From IMG/VR virus record IMGVR_UViG_3300025122_000167, positions 1 to 23,406 of that record: a stretch of 23,406 nt of DNA, one strand, 5' to 3'. The notes beneath the pieces were generated by a model. That model made no database searches. It was not told where the DNA came from and saw only the letters and a list, made by a program, of their open reading frames with translations. The position numbers were made by a program, and so were the translations under genes. Positions 3,434 through 19,506 of this stretch are shown here, in pieces. This DNA comes from a virus. The stretch's first letter is position 1. Every line of letters starts with the position of its first letter.

Positions 3434-3922
3434 CTATCTTCCTCTTTTGTAATACTCTATTCCATTATCATATGAAGATGTTAGCTGATGAACATATGCT
3501 TTAGCATATTTAGGTTTCAATCCTAGTTCATTTAATAAAGCAGTTTCTTGTAGTTTAAATCCCTCACCATGTCCATCAAATATTTTGTTATCAAATAGTA
3601 TGTAGTGTACTACTTCATGTATCATGTATGCCCATGCATATTCAGTTGAATGGTCAAATATCCATATAGGCATGGTTATCCCTCTTGTCCTATAATTTGC
3701 CCTACCACAGTTGACATCTTTAAATGTTATCCTAATATCATCAAGAAAGAATCTATCTACTAGGTACTGTTGTAAATCCATTAACTCATTTATTTCATCA
3801 TTAAATCTTTCTCTTATTGGTAAGTTCTTCTTCCTCTCATAAGTCTTAAAAGCTCGTTCTTTTATTTCCTTATCTTCTTCTGTATCATGTCTAAAATTTA
3901 ACAACTTATCACTTATCAGCAT
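3434..3922 (-). CDS. SprT-like zinc metalloprotease (copy 2)
   Basis: Paralogue of the protein at 1595-2029. It carries HEVVH as zinc-binding/catalytic motif and D-G-H-G-E-G-F downstream as the third ligand region. The strand K-D-V-N-C-G-R-A-N-Y-R-T-R-G-I-T-M-P aligns with copy 1 almost residue for residue, as does the C-terminal G-L-K-P-K-Y-A-K-A-Y-V. The open frame has a GTG at 3928, but the ATG at 3922 is correctly spaced (7 nt) behind AAGGAG, giving 162 residues. It is the first gene of the leftward arm, driven by the promoter at 3974-4002. The family processes proteins bound or crosslinked to DNA in eukaryotes; its purpose in a phage is unproven. Confidence 0.85.
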   Translation of the reverse strand: MLISDKLLNFRHDTEEDKEIKERAFKTYERKKNLPIRERFNDEINELMDLQQYLVDRFFLDDIRITFKDVNCGRANYRTRGITMPIWIFDHSTEYAWAYMIHEVVHYILFDNKIFDGHGEGFKLQETALLNELGLKPKYAKAYVHQLTSSYDNGIEYYKRGR

Positions 3923-3973
3923 TTTCACACTCCTTTATATAAAAGCTAAAAAGTTTTCATTTCAACTACGCAT

Positions 3974-11706: not shown

Positions 11707-12318
11707 ATGGCAAGATTTGATAATGAAACAATAACTAAATACGGAAAACGGATTGCTAGAGCTTTGGGAGTGGTTATTAAATGTGATGAATTTGGAAGAA
11801 ATTGGAGCAGGGAAAATAAAGATTGTAAATTATGTAGAATAGATTCACAAAGATATAACACAAAATGTAGAGAATTTTCTTTGGGAATCAAAACAGGATA
11901 TAAACCCACAAAAATTGGAAGACCTAGAAAGAAATTAAAGCTTAAACAAAAAGAAATTTACAAAGTAAAGGGGAAAAAGAATTCGTATCAACTCTTTAAA
12001 AAAGGAACAAAGATAAGGACAGTTTATGATTTTTTGAAAGATGAAAGTAATATTGGTAAATTGGAATTAATAATGAAACATGTTGCAGAAACCTTTGAAT
12101 GTGATACAACATCTGGTTCTATTGTACAACTCATAGCATACATACGAAAAGCATTAAGTGAATTTGGGCATGAGGAAATTAAATATTATGGGGGAGTTTA
12201 TTATTTAACAAAAACCAGACAAGGAAATCGTTATGATAACATTAAACCTAAAAGGAAAGAATGCACAGAAATTGTGAACAATGTAAAAGAGGAACACCTT
12301 CAACATTTGAAGGCATAG
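11707..12318 (+). CDS. Hypothetical basic protein with AT-hook-like motif
   Basis: A 203-residue, strongly basic protein. Residues about 20-60 contain four cysteines (V-I-K-C-D, C-K-L-C, T-K-C-R), a possible zinc finger. It is followed by G-R-P-R-K-K, an AT-hook core that binds the minor groove of AT-rich DNA, then a lysine-rich stretch. The C-terminal half may be a winged helix (S-I-V-Q-L-I-A-Y-I-R-K-A-L...Y-Y-G-G-V-Y-Y-L). A DNA-binding role is inferred. Its end overlaps the polymerase gene by 58 nt. Confidence 0.65.
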   Translation: MARFDNETITKYGKRIARALGVVIKCDEFGRNWSRENKDCKLCRIDSQRYNTKCREFSLGIKTGYKPTKIGRPRKKLKLKQKEIYKVKGKKNSYQLFKKGTKIRTVYDFLKDESNIGKLELIMKHVAETFECDTTSGSIVQLIAYIRKALSEFGHEEIKYYGGVYYLTKTRQGNRYDNIKPKRKECTEIVNNVKEEHLQHLKA

Positions 12319-14531
12319 GAAATCCTCGTTCCGATGTACTCGTCATAGAAGAACAGCCTTTTAATATCTCAAAACTTTCTAGAGAGTTAGTCAGGGCAGG
12401 TTTTTCTATGGATGAAGTATATATGACAAGTGTTGTCAAATGTAGAAGTAAAAAGAAAATCTCTGATAAACAAATAAAATTATGTAAAGAATTTTTAATG
12501 GTTGAAAACAGCACACCCAAACTTATTATACTCATGGGCAGTGTTGCCTGTAAAGCCTTCCTAGAGAGGACAGGTGGAGTCAATAAATTCAGAGGATATG
12601 TAATTCCTTCCAACAAATTCAATTGTAATATTGTAACCACTTTTAGTTTAGACCAATCCCAAGTACATTATTTAGAACCAGTGTTTCGTAGAGACCTTAA
12701 AATAGCTAGAAAAGTTTTAGACCAAAGATTTATTGAATCAGATATACGAACAGATAATAATGTTATCTTGTCTCATGATGATGTAATAGATTTTCTTAAA
12801 ATGATTAAGGAAGAAAAGAAACCCTTTGCTTTAGATTGGGAAACCAAAGGTCTTAAACCTTATAATAAGGGAAATCATATAATTAGTTGTGGAATATCCA
12901 CAGATAAATATAATTCCTATACATTTTTAGTAGAAAAAGATGATTTGAGTAAATCTTCAATTCAAGAAGCACTTAAAGAATTGCTTGAGAGTGATTGTAA
13001 AAAGATGTTTTTTAATTATAAGTTTGAAAAACTATGGGCTAAAGAAAGGCTTTCAATAGACATACAAAATAATGTTTATGATGTAATGTATATGTCTTAT
13101 ATTTTAGATTCTAGAAGAGGTGTTCATAGTTTAGATCATCAAGCATTTGTTAGATTAGGTTTGGGCAAACTTAAAGAAGTAGATAAATATAAAAAAGATA
13201 TGGTTCAGTGTCCTATTGACCTTCTTCATAAGTATAATGGTCTTGATGCTAAATTAACCTTTGCACTTTATCAGATGCTTGAAACTTTGATGGATGAAAA
13301 TGATTGGAAAGTTTATTTTATGATGTTAGATGGTGCAGAAGCCACCTTGAAATCTGAAATGAAAGGTGCTTTAATAGATATAGATATTCTTAATAAAAAT
13401 AAAAAAAAAGTACAGCGAGAAAAACAAGAAGCTAATCTGATTTTATCACGCCTTGATGAAGTGACAAAATTTCAAAAAATAGAAAACAAAACAATTAATC
13501 TGAATTCAACTCAACAAGTAAGTAAAGTTATGTTTGATATATTAAAATTAAATGGTGCTAAAAAAACAGTTACAGGAGCAAAGAGTATTGACGCAGAAGT
13601 ATTAGAAAGGTTTGGTGATGTTCCGTTCTGTAATCATTTATTAAGATATAGGAAAGCAAGCAAGTTACTTTCCACTTATTTAGAGGGGTTTGAAGATCAC
13701 ATTTATGATGATGGACTCCTTCATACTAATTATAATTTGACATTTACAGAGACAGGGCGATTAAGTTCGGACTCACCAAATCTACAAAATTTTCCCAAAA
13801 GGGATAATCCATTTGTAAGAGAAATGTTTACTGTTCCACCAGACCATGTATTAATGTCGTTTGATTACAAAGGGGCAGAAGTTTGTTGTATGGCTATGGA
13901 AAGTAAGGATAGAGAATTAATACGACAAGTAAATGCTCATTATGATATGCATCAGTTTTGGGCTGATAGACTTTCTCAAGTATTAACCAAAAAAATAAAC
14001 AGGTTTGATGCTAAGAATGGTTTTGTTTTCCCTTCATTTTATGGGGCAGGTTTTAAATCAATTGCAAGGAATTTAGGAGTGCATGAATCAGGAGTAGAAC
14101 AGTCACAAGATGAGTTGTTTCGAATGTATCCTTTTATAAAAAGATGGCAGAAGAGATTAAAATTATTTTATAATAAAAATCATTATGTTCAAAGTCTGTT
14201 AGGAAGAAAAAGATATGCACCACTTGATTATAATCAGATGATTAACACCCCAATACAAAGTCTTGCCAGTGATTTCTGTTTGTTATCAATGATTAAAGCA
14301 TCTAGAGAGGGGTATAAAATTCCATTAATTATTCATGATGATATAACTCTTTATGTTCATGAGAGTGAGATTTTAAAGACTTATAAACGAATTAAAAAGA
14401 TTATGACTCAATGGGATTTTGATTTTCTTAATGTGAATATGGAAATAGAATGTTCTATTGGTCGTAACTGGTTTAAACAAAAGCCTTTAGAATTAAAAAG
14501 AAAACCAAAGAAGTGTCAAGAATTTGCTTGA
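12261..14531 (+). CDS. UDG-like domain fused to family A DNA polymerase
   Basis: A 756-residue replicative polymerase in three parts. Residues 1-155 resemble family 4 uracil-DNA glycosylase: C-x-x-C (5-8), Y-M-T-S-V-V-K-C-R (54-62), L-C-K-E-F-L, P-K-L-I-I-L-M-G. However, the catalytic G-E-A-P-G loop reads E-E-Q-P-F and the H-P motif is absent, so glycosylase activity is doubtful. The 3'-5' exonuclease has D-W-E (192-194), N-Y-K-F-E-K with Y-D-V-M-Y-M, and Y-N-G-L-D (325-329), so proofreading looks intact. Polymerase motif A is D-Y-K-G-A-E (D535), motif B R581..K585..F590..Y-G (594-595), motif C I-H-D-D (691-694). AAGGAAAGA precedes the ATG. It overlaps the previous gene by 58 nt, and its stop lies inside the next promoter. 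Confidence 0.92.
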   Translation: MHRNCEQCKRGTPSTFEGIGNPRSDVLVIEEQPFNISKLSRELVRAGFSMDEVYMTSVVKCRSKKKISDKQIKLCKEFLMVENSTPKLIILMGSVACKAFLERTGGVNKFRGYVIPSNKFNCNIVTTFSLDQSQVHYLEPVFRRDLKIARKVLDQRFIESDIRTDNNVILSHDDVIDFLKMIKEEKKPFALDWETKGLKPYNKGNHIISCGISTDKYNSYTFLVEKDDLSKSSIQEALKELLESDCKKMFFNYKFEKLWAKERLSIDIQNNVYDVMYMSYILDSRRGVHSLDHQAFVRLGLGKLKEVDKYKKDMVQCPIDLLHKYNGLDAKLTFALYQMLETLMDENDWKVYFMMLDGAEATLKSEMKGALIDIDILNKNKKKVQREKQEANLILSRLDEVTKFQKIENKTINLNSTQQVSKVMFDILKLNGAKKTVTGAKSIDAEVLERFGDVPFCNHLLRYRKASKLLSTYLEGFEDHIYDDGLLHTNYNLTFTETGRLSSDSPNLQNFPKRDNPFVREMFTVPPDHVLMSFDYKGAEVCCMAMESKDRELIRQVNAHYDMHQFWADRLSQVLTKKINRFDAKNGFVFPSFYGAGFKSIARNLGVHESGVEQSQDELFRMYPFIKRWQKRLKLFYNKNHYVQSLLGRKRYAPLDYNQMINTPIQSLASDFCLLSMIKASREGYKIPLIIHDDITLYVHESEILKTYKRIKKIMTQWDFDFLNVNMEIECSIGRNWFKQKPLELKRKPKKCQEFA

Positions 14532-15764: not shown

Positions 15765-16202
15765 GTGGATAGTTTTAACAAGAAACAAGCAGTAAATGAG
15801 ACCACAATTAATGAACATGACTTACAAAATGAATGGATTATACAACCATTAGTATTTTTAGAAACTTCATTAGGATTAACCGAATTAATTCACCAAAGAG
15901 ACACTTTAAAAAGCAAGAAAATAACAGAAATAACTAAGGAAATTTTAAAAAGTGGTAGTAAATTAACTGATGCTTCTTTGAAGAGGGCTTTAGAAGGTGA
16001 CCAAGAATTAATAGATTTAGATTTAGAAGTGGGAAAATTTAAGGCTTTTGTGTCTGCTTTAATGCAAAAGAAAAGTTCTTTAGAAAATCTTGTGACGCTT
16101 TTGATTAATGGTCTTAATGCTGAACCCAAAACTCCAGAAGAAAAAACAGCTATGAAAGAAAGTATCTTGAGAGGTTTAAAAAATGGTAAAGAAAAAGATT
16201 GA
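15765..16202 (+). CDS. Hypothetical 145-aa helical protein
   Basis: The frame extends upstream to a TTG at 15726, but the GTG at 15765 lies 10 nt behind AAAGGA and begins after the SSB stop, so it is preferred. The protein is helical and charged (D-T-L-K-S-K-K-I-T-E-I-T-K-E-I-L and S-S-L-E-N-L-V-T-L-L-I-N). It ends inside the RecA-like gene (20-nt overlap). Its place between SSB and RecA would suit a recombination mediator like T4 UvsY, but I see no sequence evidence for that. Confidence 0.65.
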   Translation: MDSFNKKQAVNETTINEHDLQNEWIIQPLVFLETSLGLTELIHQRDTLKSKKITEITKEILKSGSKLTDASLKRALEGDQELIDLDLEVGKFKAFVSALMQKKSSLENLVTLLINGLNAEPKTPEEKTAMKESILRGLKNGKEKD

Positions 16203-17238
16203 AGAAATTGCCGTACCAGAATTAAAAACCAGAGTAGAATTTACAAGCACAGGTTCAATATTATTAAATCTTGCAATGAGTGGTAAGGGCAGGAATGGTG
16301 GTTATGCAAGAGGGCGTATAATTAATTTGGTAGGTGATGGTAGTAGTGGAAAGACTCTTTTAGCCCTTGAAGCATGTGCTCAAGCTTATTACAATCTTAA
16401 CAAAACTCCTGTATTATTTGATAAAGTAAAGAAAATTATAATCGTCTACAATAATGTGGAAGGTGTAATGGACTTTCCAATTGAAGAAATGTATGGAGAA
16501 GATTTTGTTAAATCTATAGAGTGGGTACGACTTGATACAGCAGAGAAAGCAGGTAATGATTATTTAAGAAGGGTGAAGGCTCTTAAAAGTGGTGAATACC
16601 TTTTGTATGTAATGGATTCTCTTGATGCTATGGTTTCAGAAGCAGGGAAAGAACGAGCAGAAGAAGCAATTAAGAAAGACAAAATCCAAGATGGTAGTTA
16701 TTCCCTAGAAAAACAGAAATATTTTTCTTCAACTTTATTTCCTAGAGCAGTTGATTATACAGAAGGTAAGGATTCTACACTAATTTGTATTTCTCAAGTT
16801 AGAGAAAATATTAATGCAGGTCTCTTTGGGACAAAGCATTATCGGGTTGGTGGGAAAGCATTAGATTTTTACACCCACCAAGTAGCGTGGTTAGCTAAAA
16901 TTGGTAATCTCAGTAGAGAATTCAAAGCAAAGAAGAAAGTTTATGGCATTAGAATTAAAGCAAAACTTAATCGTAATAAAGTAGCGAAACCATTTCGTGA
17001 GGCAGAATTTGACATACTCTTTGATTATGGGGTAGACGATATTGGAAGTATGCTGACTTATCTTTATGGTGGAGCTAAAGAAATTCTTTGGAATGGTCAA
17101 GAGATGAAAAGAATTGATTTAATTAAATTTATTGAAGATGATAAAACACAATATGATTCATTGATAAATTTAATTGAAAAAGATTGGAATGAAGCAGAAG
17201 AAAAGATCAAACCAAAGAGAAAAAAAAGATTTAAATAA
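16183..17238 (+). CDS. RecA/UvsX-like recombinase
   Basis: A 351-residue strand-exchange ATPase. Residues 22-27 (S-T-G-S-I-L-L-N-L) match the conserved start of the RecA core. Walker A is GDGSSGKT (51-58). A glutamate after the second strand (Y-N-N-V-E-G, E93) fits the catalytic position. Walker B is L-L-Y-V-M-D-S-L-D-A-M (140-150). I-S-Q-V-R-E-N followed by G-G-K-A-L-D-F-Y covers the L2 DNA-binding region. The C-terminus is lysine rich. It should pair homologous DNA for recombination-dependent replication, loaded on SSB-coated DNA. GAGAGG precedes the ATG; its stop overlaps the resolvase start (TAATG). Confidence 0.9.
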   Translation: MVKKKIEEIAVPELKTRVEFTSTGSILLNLAMSGKGRNGGYARGRIINLVGDGSSGKTLLALEACAQAYYNLNKTPVLFDKVKKIIIVYNNVEGVMDFPIEEMYGEDFVKSIEWVRLDTAEKAGNDYLRRVKALKSGEYLLYVMDSLDAMVSEAGKERAEEAIKKDKIQDGSYSLEKQKYFSSTLFPRAVDYTEGKDSTLICISQVRENINAGLFGTKHYRVGGKALDFYTHQVAWLAKIGNLSREFKAKKKVYGIRIKAKLNRNKVAKPFREAEFDILFDYGVDDIGSMLTYLYGGAKEILWNGQEMKRIDLIKFIEDDKTQYDSLINLIEKDWNEAEEKIKPKRKKRFK

Positions 17239-17717: not shown

Positions 17718-18797
17718 ATGAAATTCATCGAACTATTTGCAGGTATTGGGGGATTTAGATTAGGTCTTGAAAGGTCTGGACATAAATGTGTTTGGGCTAA
17801 TGAATGGTTAGAACGACCTCGTAGAATTTATAAATATAATTTTGGAGAATATCCCAATGAGCAAGACATTAGAAAAATCACAGGAGAAGAAATCCCTAGA
17901 GCAGACTTACTCACCGCAGGATTTCCTTGTGCAACTTTTAGCGTTGCAGGAAAGAAGACAGGGTTCTGCACATCAGACACCAGAGGAACTCTCTTTTTTG
18001 AAATCTGCAAAATCCTTCGGGTTACAAAAATCCCTTATTTGCTTCTTGAGAATGTCAAAGGACTCCTCAACCATGACAACGGAAGAACTATGTCAATCAT
18101 CCTCACTTCGTTGGATGAACTTGGGTATGACATTCAATGGGAAGTGCTTAACAGCAAAAATTTCGGAGTCCCACAAAATAGGGAAAGGTTATTCATTGTT
18201 GGAAATTCTAGAATTAAATCCAGACCAAAAGTTTTTCCTATCGGAAGCTCAAAAGAACAGGATGATAAAAAAGGATATGAAGAACAAGAAAGCAGGAAAG
18301 GGGTTTCTAACAAAGGTAATAGATATACAGGAACTTTAGATGCTCATTATACTAAAGGTGGTAGTACCAGAACTTTTATAAAACAATGGAGAAGAGGTTA
18401 CTTTAGAGATTATAAAGGTGATGGTGTGCCGACACTTACAGCTAATATGGGTACTGGTGGTCATAATGTGCCTTTTGTTGTAAGACCTTGTTTGACTCCT
18501 AATAGAAAAACCAAAAGACAAAGAGGTAGACGATTTAAAGAAAATGGTGAGATAGCTCACACTGTAGGAGTACAAGATCGTCATGGAATTTATACGGAAT
18601 CACTTGAACATAATGATATACGGAAGCTAACCCCTCTTGAAACTGAACGATTACAAGGTCTTCCAGATAATTTCACAAAGTATTATGATGATGGAACACT
18701 TGTATCTAATTCAGAACGATGGGAAAGATGTGGTAGAACTGTTACAATTCCAGTTATTGAAGCTATAGGAAGGAAATTGGGATATGAGTGGTATTAA
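17718..18797 (+). CDS. Cytosine-C5 DNA methyltransferase, motif X Arg (putative carboxymethyltransferase)
   Basis: A complete C5 methyltransferase of 359 residues. Motif I is F-A-G-I-G-G (7-12), motif IV G-F-P-C-A-T-F-S with catalytic C71, motif VI E-N-V (111-113), motif VIII Q-N-R-E-R-L-F (153-159); the target recognition region lies at about 165-310. Motif X, normally G-N-S/A-V, reads C-G-R-T-V-T-I-P-V, so the SAM-pocket asparagine is R340. An engineered enzyme with Lys at this position (M.MpeI N374K, from memory) accepts carboxy-SAM. The next gene encodes a CmoA homologue and overlaps by 14 nt. I infer transfer of a carboxymethyl rather than a methyl group to cytosine. Sequence specificity cannot be read. 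No restriction partner is present. The start has no strong ribosome binding site. Confidence 0.93.
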   Translation: MKFIELFAGIGGFRLGLERSGHKCVWANEWLERPRRIYKYNFGEYPNEQDIRKITGEEIPRADLLTAGFPCATFSVAGKKTGFCTSDTRGTLFFEICKILRVTKIPYLLLENVKGLLNHDNGRTMSIILTSLDELGYDIQWEVLNSKNFGVPQNRERLFIVGNSRIKSRPKVFPIGSSKEQDDKKGYEEQESRKGVSNKGNRYTGTLDAHYTKGGSTRTFIKQWRRGYFRDYKGDGVPTLTANMGTGGHNVPFVVRPCLTPNRKTKRQRGRRFKENGEIAHTVGVQDRHGIYTESLEHNDIRKLTPLETERLQGLPDNFTKYYDDGTLVSNSERWERCGRTVTIPVIEAIGRKLGYEWY

Positions 18798-19506
18798 AGA
18801 TGAAGTCAAACCTAAAGAAAAATGGGAGTTTGATGAAGATGTTACCAATGCTTTTGATGATATGCTAACTAGGTCTATTCCTGAATATAAACTCATGAGA
18901 TTATCTGTAAATGAGTTAGCTAAAGAATACATAAAGAAAGGCACATGTGTCCTAGATTTAGGATGCTCTAGAGGGGAAGCTATAGCTTCGTTGGTTGCTG
19001 AATTTTCCACAGAAAGCAAATTTCTATGCTGTGATACAAGCAAACCAATGTTAAAAGTAACAGAAAAACGATTTCAAGATTACGATAATGTTTTTGTTCA
19101 GTACACTGATTTAAGGCATAGCTTCCCACTCTTTAAAAATTCCAGTATTAAAAGTTCTGTTGTGTTGTCTATTCTCACAATACAATTTACACCAATTGAA
19201 TACAGATTACAAATTTTGAAAAATGTATATGATAGTCTCCAAGAGGGTGGTTGTTTCATATTAGTAGAAAAAGTAATAGGAAACTCTGCAGACCTTGATC
19301 GTAATTTTAGAAAAATGTACTATGACATGAAATCCTCTAATGGTTACACACAAAATCAGATAGAAAGAAAAAAGTTTTCTTTAGAAGGTGTATTAGTTCC
19401 TGTAACAGCTAAATGGAATGAGGAGATGTTAAAGACTTCTGGATTTACACAAATAGATTGTTTTTGGAGATGGATGAACTTTGCAGGTTGGATAGCTATT
19501 AAATGA
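18784..19506 (+). CDS. CmoA-like carboxy-S-adenosylmethionine synthase
   Basis: A 240-residue class I SAM-fold protein that follows E. coli CmoA along its length (alignment from memory). W-E-F-D-E-D-V for W-T-F-D-E-R-V; R-S-I-P-E-Y for R-S-V-P-G-Y; V-L-D-L-G-C-S-R-G (56-64) for V-Y-D-L-G-C-S-L-G; Q-F-x-P; M-Y-Y-D-M-K-S-S-N-G-Y for M-H-H-D-F-K-R-A-N-G-Y; L-E-G-V for L-E-N-V. The carboxylate-binding R199 of CmoA corresponds to K197, a conservative change. CmoA makes carboxy-SAM from SAM and prephenate, normally for CmoB and tRNA wobble uridine. No CmoB is in the window; the partner appears to be the adjacent DNA methyltransferase. A good AGGAAGG site lies inside that gene. Confidence 0.85.
   Translation: MSGIKDEVKPKEKWEFDEDVTNAFDDMLTRSIPEYKLMRLSVNELAKEYIKKGTCVLDLGCSRGEAIASLVAEFSTESKFLCCDTSKPMLKVTEKRFQDYDNVFVQYTDLRHSFPLFKNSSIKSSVVLSILTIQFTPIEYRLQILKNVYDSLQEGGCFILVEKVIGNSADLDRNFRKMYYDMKSSNGYTQNQIERKKFSLEGVLVPVTAKWNEEMLKTSGFTQIDCFWRWMNFAGWIAIK

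Follow-up and report, generated by a model that had tools for sequence, protein, structure and literature searches.

A phage gene pair predicted to carboxymethylate cytosine in DNA belongs to an HhaI-like, GFPC-type branch apart from the published CmoX lineage

The closest described system is that of Synechococcus phage S-B43, in which CmoA makes carboxy-SAM, CmoX, a C5-methyltransferase homologue, makes 5-carboxymethylcytosine (5cxmC) in GC motifs, and CmoY ligates glycine after carboxymethylation (Yang et al., Nat Commun, Dec 2025; PMC12783734). In crystal 8YF3 residue R350 of the S-B43 enzyme (SpCmoX), located at the position of N304 in M.HhaI, touches carboxy-SAM; the wild-type enzyme works with carboxy-SAM only and does not use SAM, and the R350N variant accepts neither cofactor (PMC12783734). 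The same work reports that 5cxmC blocked HhaI digestion, raises SAM depletion by CmoA as a possibility, and refers to M.MpeI N374K, an engineered carboxymethyltransferase with Lys at the position of the motif X Asn. Its survey kept 5,615 sequences with a filter for SPPC in motif IV plus Arg350, and GFPC is not mentioned in the main text (PMC12783734). M.HhaI itself has been mutated by chemists at Q82 and N304 to admit bulky cofactors and transfer bulky groups (PMC10666283).

The window, i.e. the whole stretch of 23,406 nucleotides analysed here (IMG/VR record IMGVR_UViG_3300025122_000167, positions 1 to 23,406), carries two complete open reading frames on the plus strand, one for a C5-cytosine methyltransferase homologue of 359 amino acids (17718-18797) and one for a CmoA-family protein of 240 amino acids (18784-19506). 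The methyltransferase gene comes first and the two overlap by 14 nt (18784-18797), exactly as a preliminary description of this DNA had stated. The pair is preceded by genes for a RecA-like protein and a RuvC-type resolvase and followed by genes for a gp49-like small protein and an SbcC-like ATPase. The RecA-like gene of the window (16183-17238) has no intein, whereas its counterpart in another locus (L012:4345-6732) is interrupted by one that carries a LAGLIDADG domain (PF14890, PF14528). Further upstream, a family A DNA polymerase (12261-14531) combines its exonuclease and polymerase domains in one chain with a uracil-DNA-glycosylase-like domain at the N-terminus (PF03167, 6.5e-8), and an opposite-strand block contains a pair of similar genes for SprT-like putative metalloproteases with weak PF10263 matches (1595-2143 and 3434-3928, minus strand). 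A promoter and terminator scan gave no signal above chance.

The methyltransferase matches PF00145 over its whole length (2.4e-78) and TIGR00675 (dcm; 5.2e-85), and M.HhaI is both its best sequence match in the PDB and its best fold match. Conserved PF00145 motifs are present in order: F-A-G-I-G-G (I), G-F-P-C71 (IV), E111-N-V (VI), Q153-x-R-E-R157 (VIII) and the X region from R302 to G339. In motif IV (G-F-P-C71-A72-T73-F-S; 17919-17942, plus strand) the catalytic Cys71 corresponds to C81 of M.HhaI, and Ala72 takes the place of Gln Q82. Motif X (18723-18737, plus strand) reads E336-R337-C-G-R340 in place of K300-Q301-F-G-N304, so that HhaI residues C81/Q82/K300/Q301/N304 have C71/A72/E336/R337/R340 as their equivalents. 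The replacement of the motif X Asn by Arg, proposed earlier, is borne out by the HMMER alignment to M.HhaI, which places 'wercGRtvti' on 'ykqfGNsvvi' and thus R340 on N304. As R350 of SpCmoX contacts carboxy-SAM from this very position (PDB 8YF3; PMC12783734), we propose R340 as binder of the cofactor's carboxylate. AF2 gave a methyltransferase model of low quality in the target-recognition region (mean pLDDT 67.5), too weak there for geometry.

The best curated family of the second gene product is TIGR00740 CmoA (1.1e-45, residues 12-240), and the second-best family (1e-27) is also CmoA. Its score of 156 bits lies below the 193-bit equivalog cut-off; the verified S-B43 enzyme (SpCmoA) scores lower still, at 115.6 bits. 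The AF2 model (pLDDT 90.8) has its best fold matches in YecO/CmoA structures 1im8 and 4gek (E about 1e-21), and the cofactor residues Y35, D58, G60, S62, D84, D109, F135 and E162 are conserved. The claim that the protein follows E. coli CmoA over its whole length therefore stands, and we regard it as a predicted carboxy-SAM synthase. One supporting argument has to be given up: K197 does align with R199 of E. coli CmoA, as had been suggested, but this column is not diagnostic because the experimentally verified S-B43 CmoA carries Glu there, and we no longer count it towards the identification.

To see how motif X Arg and CmoA co-occur, we ran IMG/VR protein and profile scans and sorted the relatives by their motif IV and motif X types. 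CmoA was found in the locus of 69 of the 71 distinct GFPC-Arg sequences, all on viral contigs, but in none of the Asn-type relatives listed (GFPC-Asn 0/51, GSPC-Asn 0/17, together 0/68), the Asn counts being a sample because one of the scans kept its best 80 matches. Among the matches listed in one such scan CmoA stood beside every GFPC-Arg enzyme and beside no Asn enzyme. In a second scan all 70 GFPC-Arg loci with room for CmoA had it, and in the three loci where it was missing the sequence ends 80-150 nt from the gene. The co-occurrence put forward as a check by the preliminary description is thus nearly perfect. SPPC-Arg enzymes were accompanied by CmoA in 38/38 cases, a set gathered largely via CmoA, so that the unbiased test of linkage consists of the GFPC scans only, which were queried with the methyltransferase. 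The GFPC-Arg clade represents one origin, so its many cases count for less than their number suggests; it is the SPPC branch that supplies independent support. The CmoA partners of the clade do not themselves form one clade (AU p 0.016, quick tree) but fall into several CmoA lineages, indicating repeated replacement of CmoA with retention of the pairing. Some members of the clade have shorter, very divergent CmoA homologues as partners (22-27% identity to E. coli CmoA), for which TIGR00740 is still the best family. Compared with a relative whose methyltransferase and CmoA are 88% and 74% identical (L005), dN/dS is 0.14 for the methyltransferase and 0.12 for CmoA; both genes are under purifying selection. 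These ratios, together with the Arg found in motif X of all 71 distinct GFPCAT relatives, argue against the gene pair and its motif X Arg being products of chance.

The changes around the cofactor are coordinated. Ala82, Glu300, Arg301 and Arg304 (HhaI numbering) are present in 71/71 GFPC-Arg enzymes, whereas none of the GFPC-Asn relatives listed has any of the four; the SPPC-Arg enzymes share Glu300, Arg301 and Arg304 in 38/38 and Ala82 in 32/38 cases. A screen for columns that separate GFPC-Arg from GFPC-Asn enzymes revealed that the SPPC-Arg enzymes have the same residue as the former at HhaI positions 37 (Trp), 59 (Arg), 82 (Ala), 300 (Glu), 301 (Arg) and 304 (Arg). It looks as if two Arg branches have converged on one carboxy-SAM pocket, as judged from these alignments.

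Taken together, the gene pair is best explained as a phage DNA carboxymethylation cassette, a reading to which we assign a probability of about 0.85, the activities, the DNA product and an anti-restriction role being predicted from sequence comparison. The CmoA homologue would convert SAM and host prephenate to carboxy-SAM. The methyltransferase homologue, a predicted DNA cytosine C5-carboxymethyltransferase, would then use Cys71 to attack C6 of a flipped-out cytosine and place the carboxymethyl group on C5. R340, together with a pocket that Ala72, Glu336 and Arg337 have reshaped, would bind the carboxylate and shut out plain SAM. The phage DNA would carry 5cxmC in some short sequence context and resist restriction, and the cassette would comprise no CmoY-type amide ligase step. 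The preliminary description had arrived at carboxy-SAM and 5cxmC as well; the linkage of Arg and CmoA and the chemistry shown in S-B43 (PMC12783734) support this reading, although the idea is not new.

An ordinary 5-methylcytosine methyltransferase with an odd motif X, next to a CmoA homologue acting in tRNA modification or SAM depletion, would fit the PF00145/dcm family membership, the function of bacterial CmoA in tRNA cmo5U formation and the SAM depletion considered possible for CmoA (PMC12783734). Such an enzyme is highly unlikely here, since Arg types are nearly always linked to CmoA and the Asn types listed never, the coordinated Ala/Glu/Arg/Arg changes recur in the proven CmoX branch, and SAM is not usable by wild-type SpCmoX (PMC12783734). 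If the pair is a carboxymethylation cassette, its methyltransferase might still be a divergent offshoot of the published SPPC lineage, with which it has Glu/Arg/Arg of motif X in common. In a first AU test the joint origin of both Arg groups was indeed not rejected (p 0.358), since that set lacked Asn-type enzymes close to the SPPC class. We then added PPC-type phage enzymes, which are closely related to the SPPC-Arg group, and repeated the test on an alignment stripped of motifs IV and X and of the target-recognition region. With these Asn/Met relatives included, forcing GFPC-Arg and SPPC-Arg enzymes together costs 98.6 lnL units (AU p 7.35e-14), rendering a single CmoX lineage very improbable. 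In a tree built from an alignment stripped in the same way, the GFPC-Arg sequences form a single clade with 100/100 support inside the HhaI-like methyltransferases. We conclude that the window enzyme is, by its predicted activity, a CmoX, and that it evolved apart from the published SPPC lineage, within the HhaI-like GFPC methyltransferases.

What the finished base looks like is a separate matter. No CmoY amide ligase was found within the window, and CmoY homologues were found in 0/87 GFPC-Arg loci as compared to 27/49 SPPC loci (Fisher p 2e-15, a nominal value as loci within a clade are not independent). A search for Asn_synthase (PF00733) was negative in 21 of 21 whole, though incomplete, GFPC-Arg contigs of 21-71 kb and positive in 5/5 control records; with SpCmoY as query the sole match was weak (contig G008, E 4e-4, 26% identity). 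A ligase may still be encoded on parts of these genomes that the contigs do not cover. The simplest reading of this result is that the product may be bare 5cxmC. Alternatively, the carboxymethyl group made by the same cassette could be decorated further by an enzyme other than CmoY, whose gene would lie elsewhere in the phage genome or in the host. This possibility is the less probable one; in its favour, S-B43 DNA contained only the glycine-ligated form and no free 5cxmC (PMC12783734), and the contigs are fragments with many unannotated genes. It has to be set against the result that no third gene is common to the clade: only the methyltransferase and CmoA families occur in practically all of the 87 loci, the non-overlapping families that follow them in frequency are found in at most 43 of 87, and ParB-domain proteins, encoded just 3' of CmoA in about 36 loci, are absent from the window. 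The Asn_synthase search in whole contigs points the same way. The carboxymethyl group is thus probably left bare, or finished by an enzyme not recognised here. On balance we lean towards the view that phages came to use carboxy-SAM on DNA at least twice, independently and starting from different C5-methyltransferase stocks, with the same active-site solution, and that the HhaI-like branch is ligase-free with bare 5cxmC as its finished base.

Other CmoA-linked or CmoX-related enzymes came up in the scans. A CmoA-linked methyltransferase with SFPC and Arg (L086:10763-11908) lies outside both Arg classes in the tree and maybe represents a further origin. The SPPC-type enzymes of a Bacteroides LoVEphage (L264:3088-4056) and Flavobacterium phage Fpv5 (L265:2944-4011) group with the published CmoX and have Met at the position of N304; no CmoA was found in the sequence stretch seen around either gene. 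In Staphylococcus phages, an SPbeta-like phage (KT429160; L098:8684-9682) and vB-SscS-F1 (MW589261; L102:9500-10507), CmoA-linked methyltransferases have GSPC in motif IV and Gly at the N304 position, and in vB-SscS-F1 a CmoY homologue is encoded between CmoA and the C5-methyltransferase. These GSPC-Gly enzymes, which occur in isolated phages, may form a further branch that uses carboxy-SAM but anchors its carboxylate differently.

As to the host, the low-GC Gram-positive suggested previously is unsupported, the contig evidence amounting to a GC content of 30%. The sole genome match of the clade, NZBI01000015.1, is 99.94% identical to the window over 15.7 kb and is binned in an 800-kb GTDB Nanoarchaeota MAG. 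However, the window contig contains bacterial-type DnaB, DnaG, PolA and RecA genes, and the MAG yielded no chorismate synthase and no chorismate mutase, leaving it without an evident source of prephenate. Both observations make mis-binning probable, so we do not take the MAG as evidence for a host. Among 50,697 records we found no isolated phage of the GFPC-Arg clade, full-length matches to P0001 reaching about 42%; the best split match among isolated phages is 50% identical, but there the catalytic Cys is followed by Gln and motif X contains Asn. The window polymerase matches isolated phages at only about 24-27%.

The results extend a DNA modification system known since late 2025 by a separately evolved branch that an SPPC-based filter would not count. 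The branch offers a natural parallel to the engineering of the Q82/N304 pocket for DNA labelling and a predicted two-gene, ligase-free route to 5cxmC that is easily expressed and tested, on an HhaI-like scaffold of well-known structure.

Compared with E. coli CmoA and H. influenzae YecO (4gek, 1im8; TIGR00740), the window CmoA shows full-length homology, 30% identity and most cofactor-contact residues, but it scores below the equivalog level, has Lys for R199 and lacks a CmoB partner, with a DNA methyltransferase as neighbour instead. The methyltransferase resembles M.HhaI and phage HhaI-like C5-methyltransferases (PF00145, TIGR00675) in fold, GFPC motif IV and catalytic motifs, and differs from M.HhaI in having Ala for Q82, Glu for K300, Arg for Q301, Arg for N304 and an adjoining CmoA gene. 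M.MpeI N374K likewise has a basic residue in place of the motif X Asn to accommodate carboxy-SAM; it is, however, an engineered single mutant with Lys, whereas the natural clade combines Arg with three further coordinated changes. Like the CmoA-CmoX-CmoY system of S-B43 (PDB 8YF3; MN018232), the locus has CmoA near a C5-methyltransferase homologue with Arg at the N304 position, an E-R-x-G-R motif X, a small residue after the catalytic Pro-Cys and no CmoB. Of the features that define CmoX in that work (PMC12783734), the motif X Arg and the CmoA neighbour are present, whereas motif IV is GFPC instead of SPPC and common descent with the SPPC-Arg enzymes is rejected by the AU test above; the nearby amide ligase (Asn_synthase-like) that marks the hypermodification system is absent. 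The window CmoA is 27% identical to SpCmoA, and the genes follow the order methyltransferase, then CmoA, with their short overlap. The chemistry itself is already published (PMC12783734); what is new here is the branch, a separately evolved one of GFPC type in whose loci no CmoY was found.
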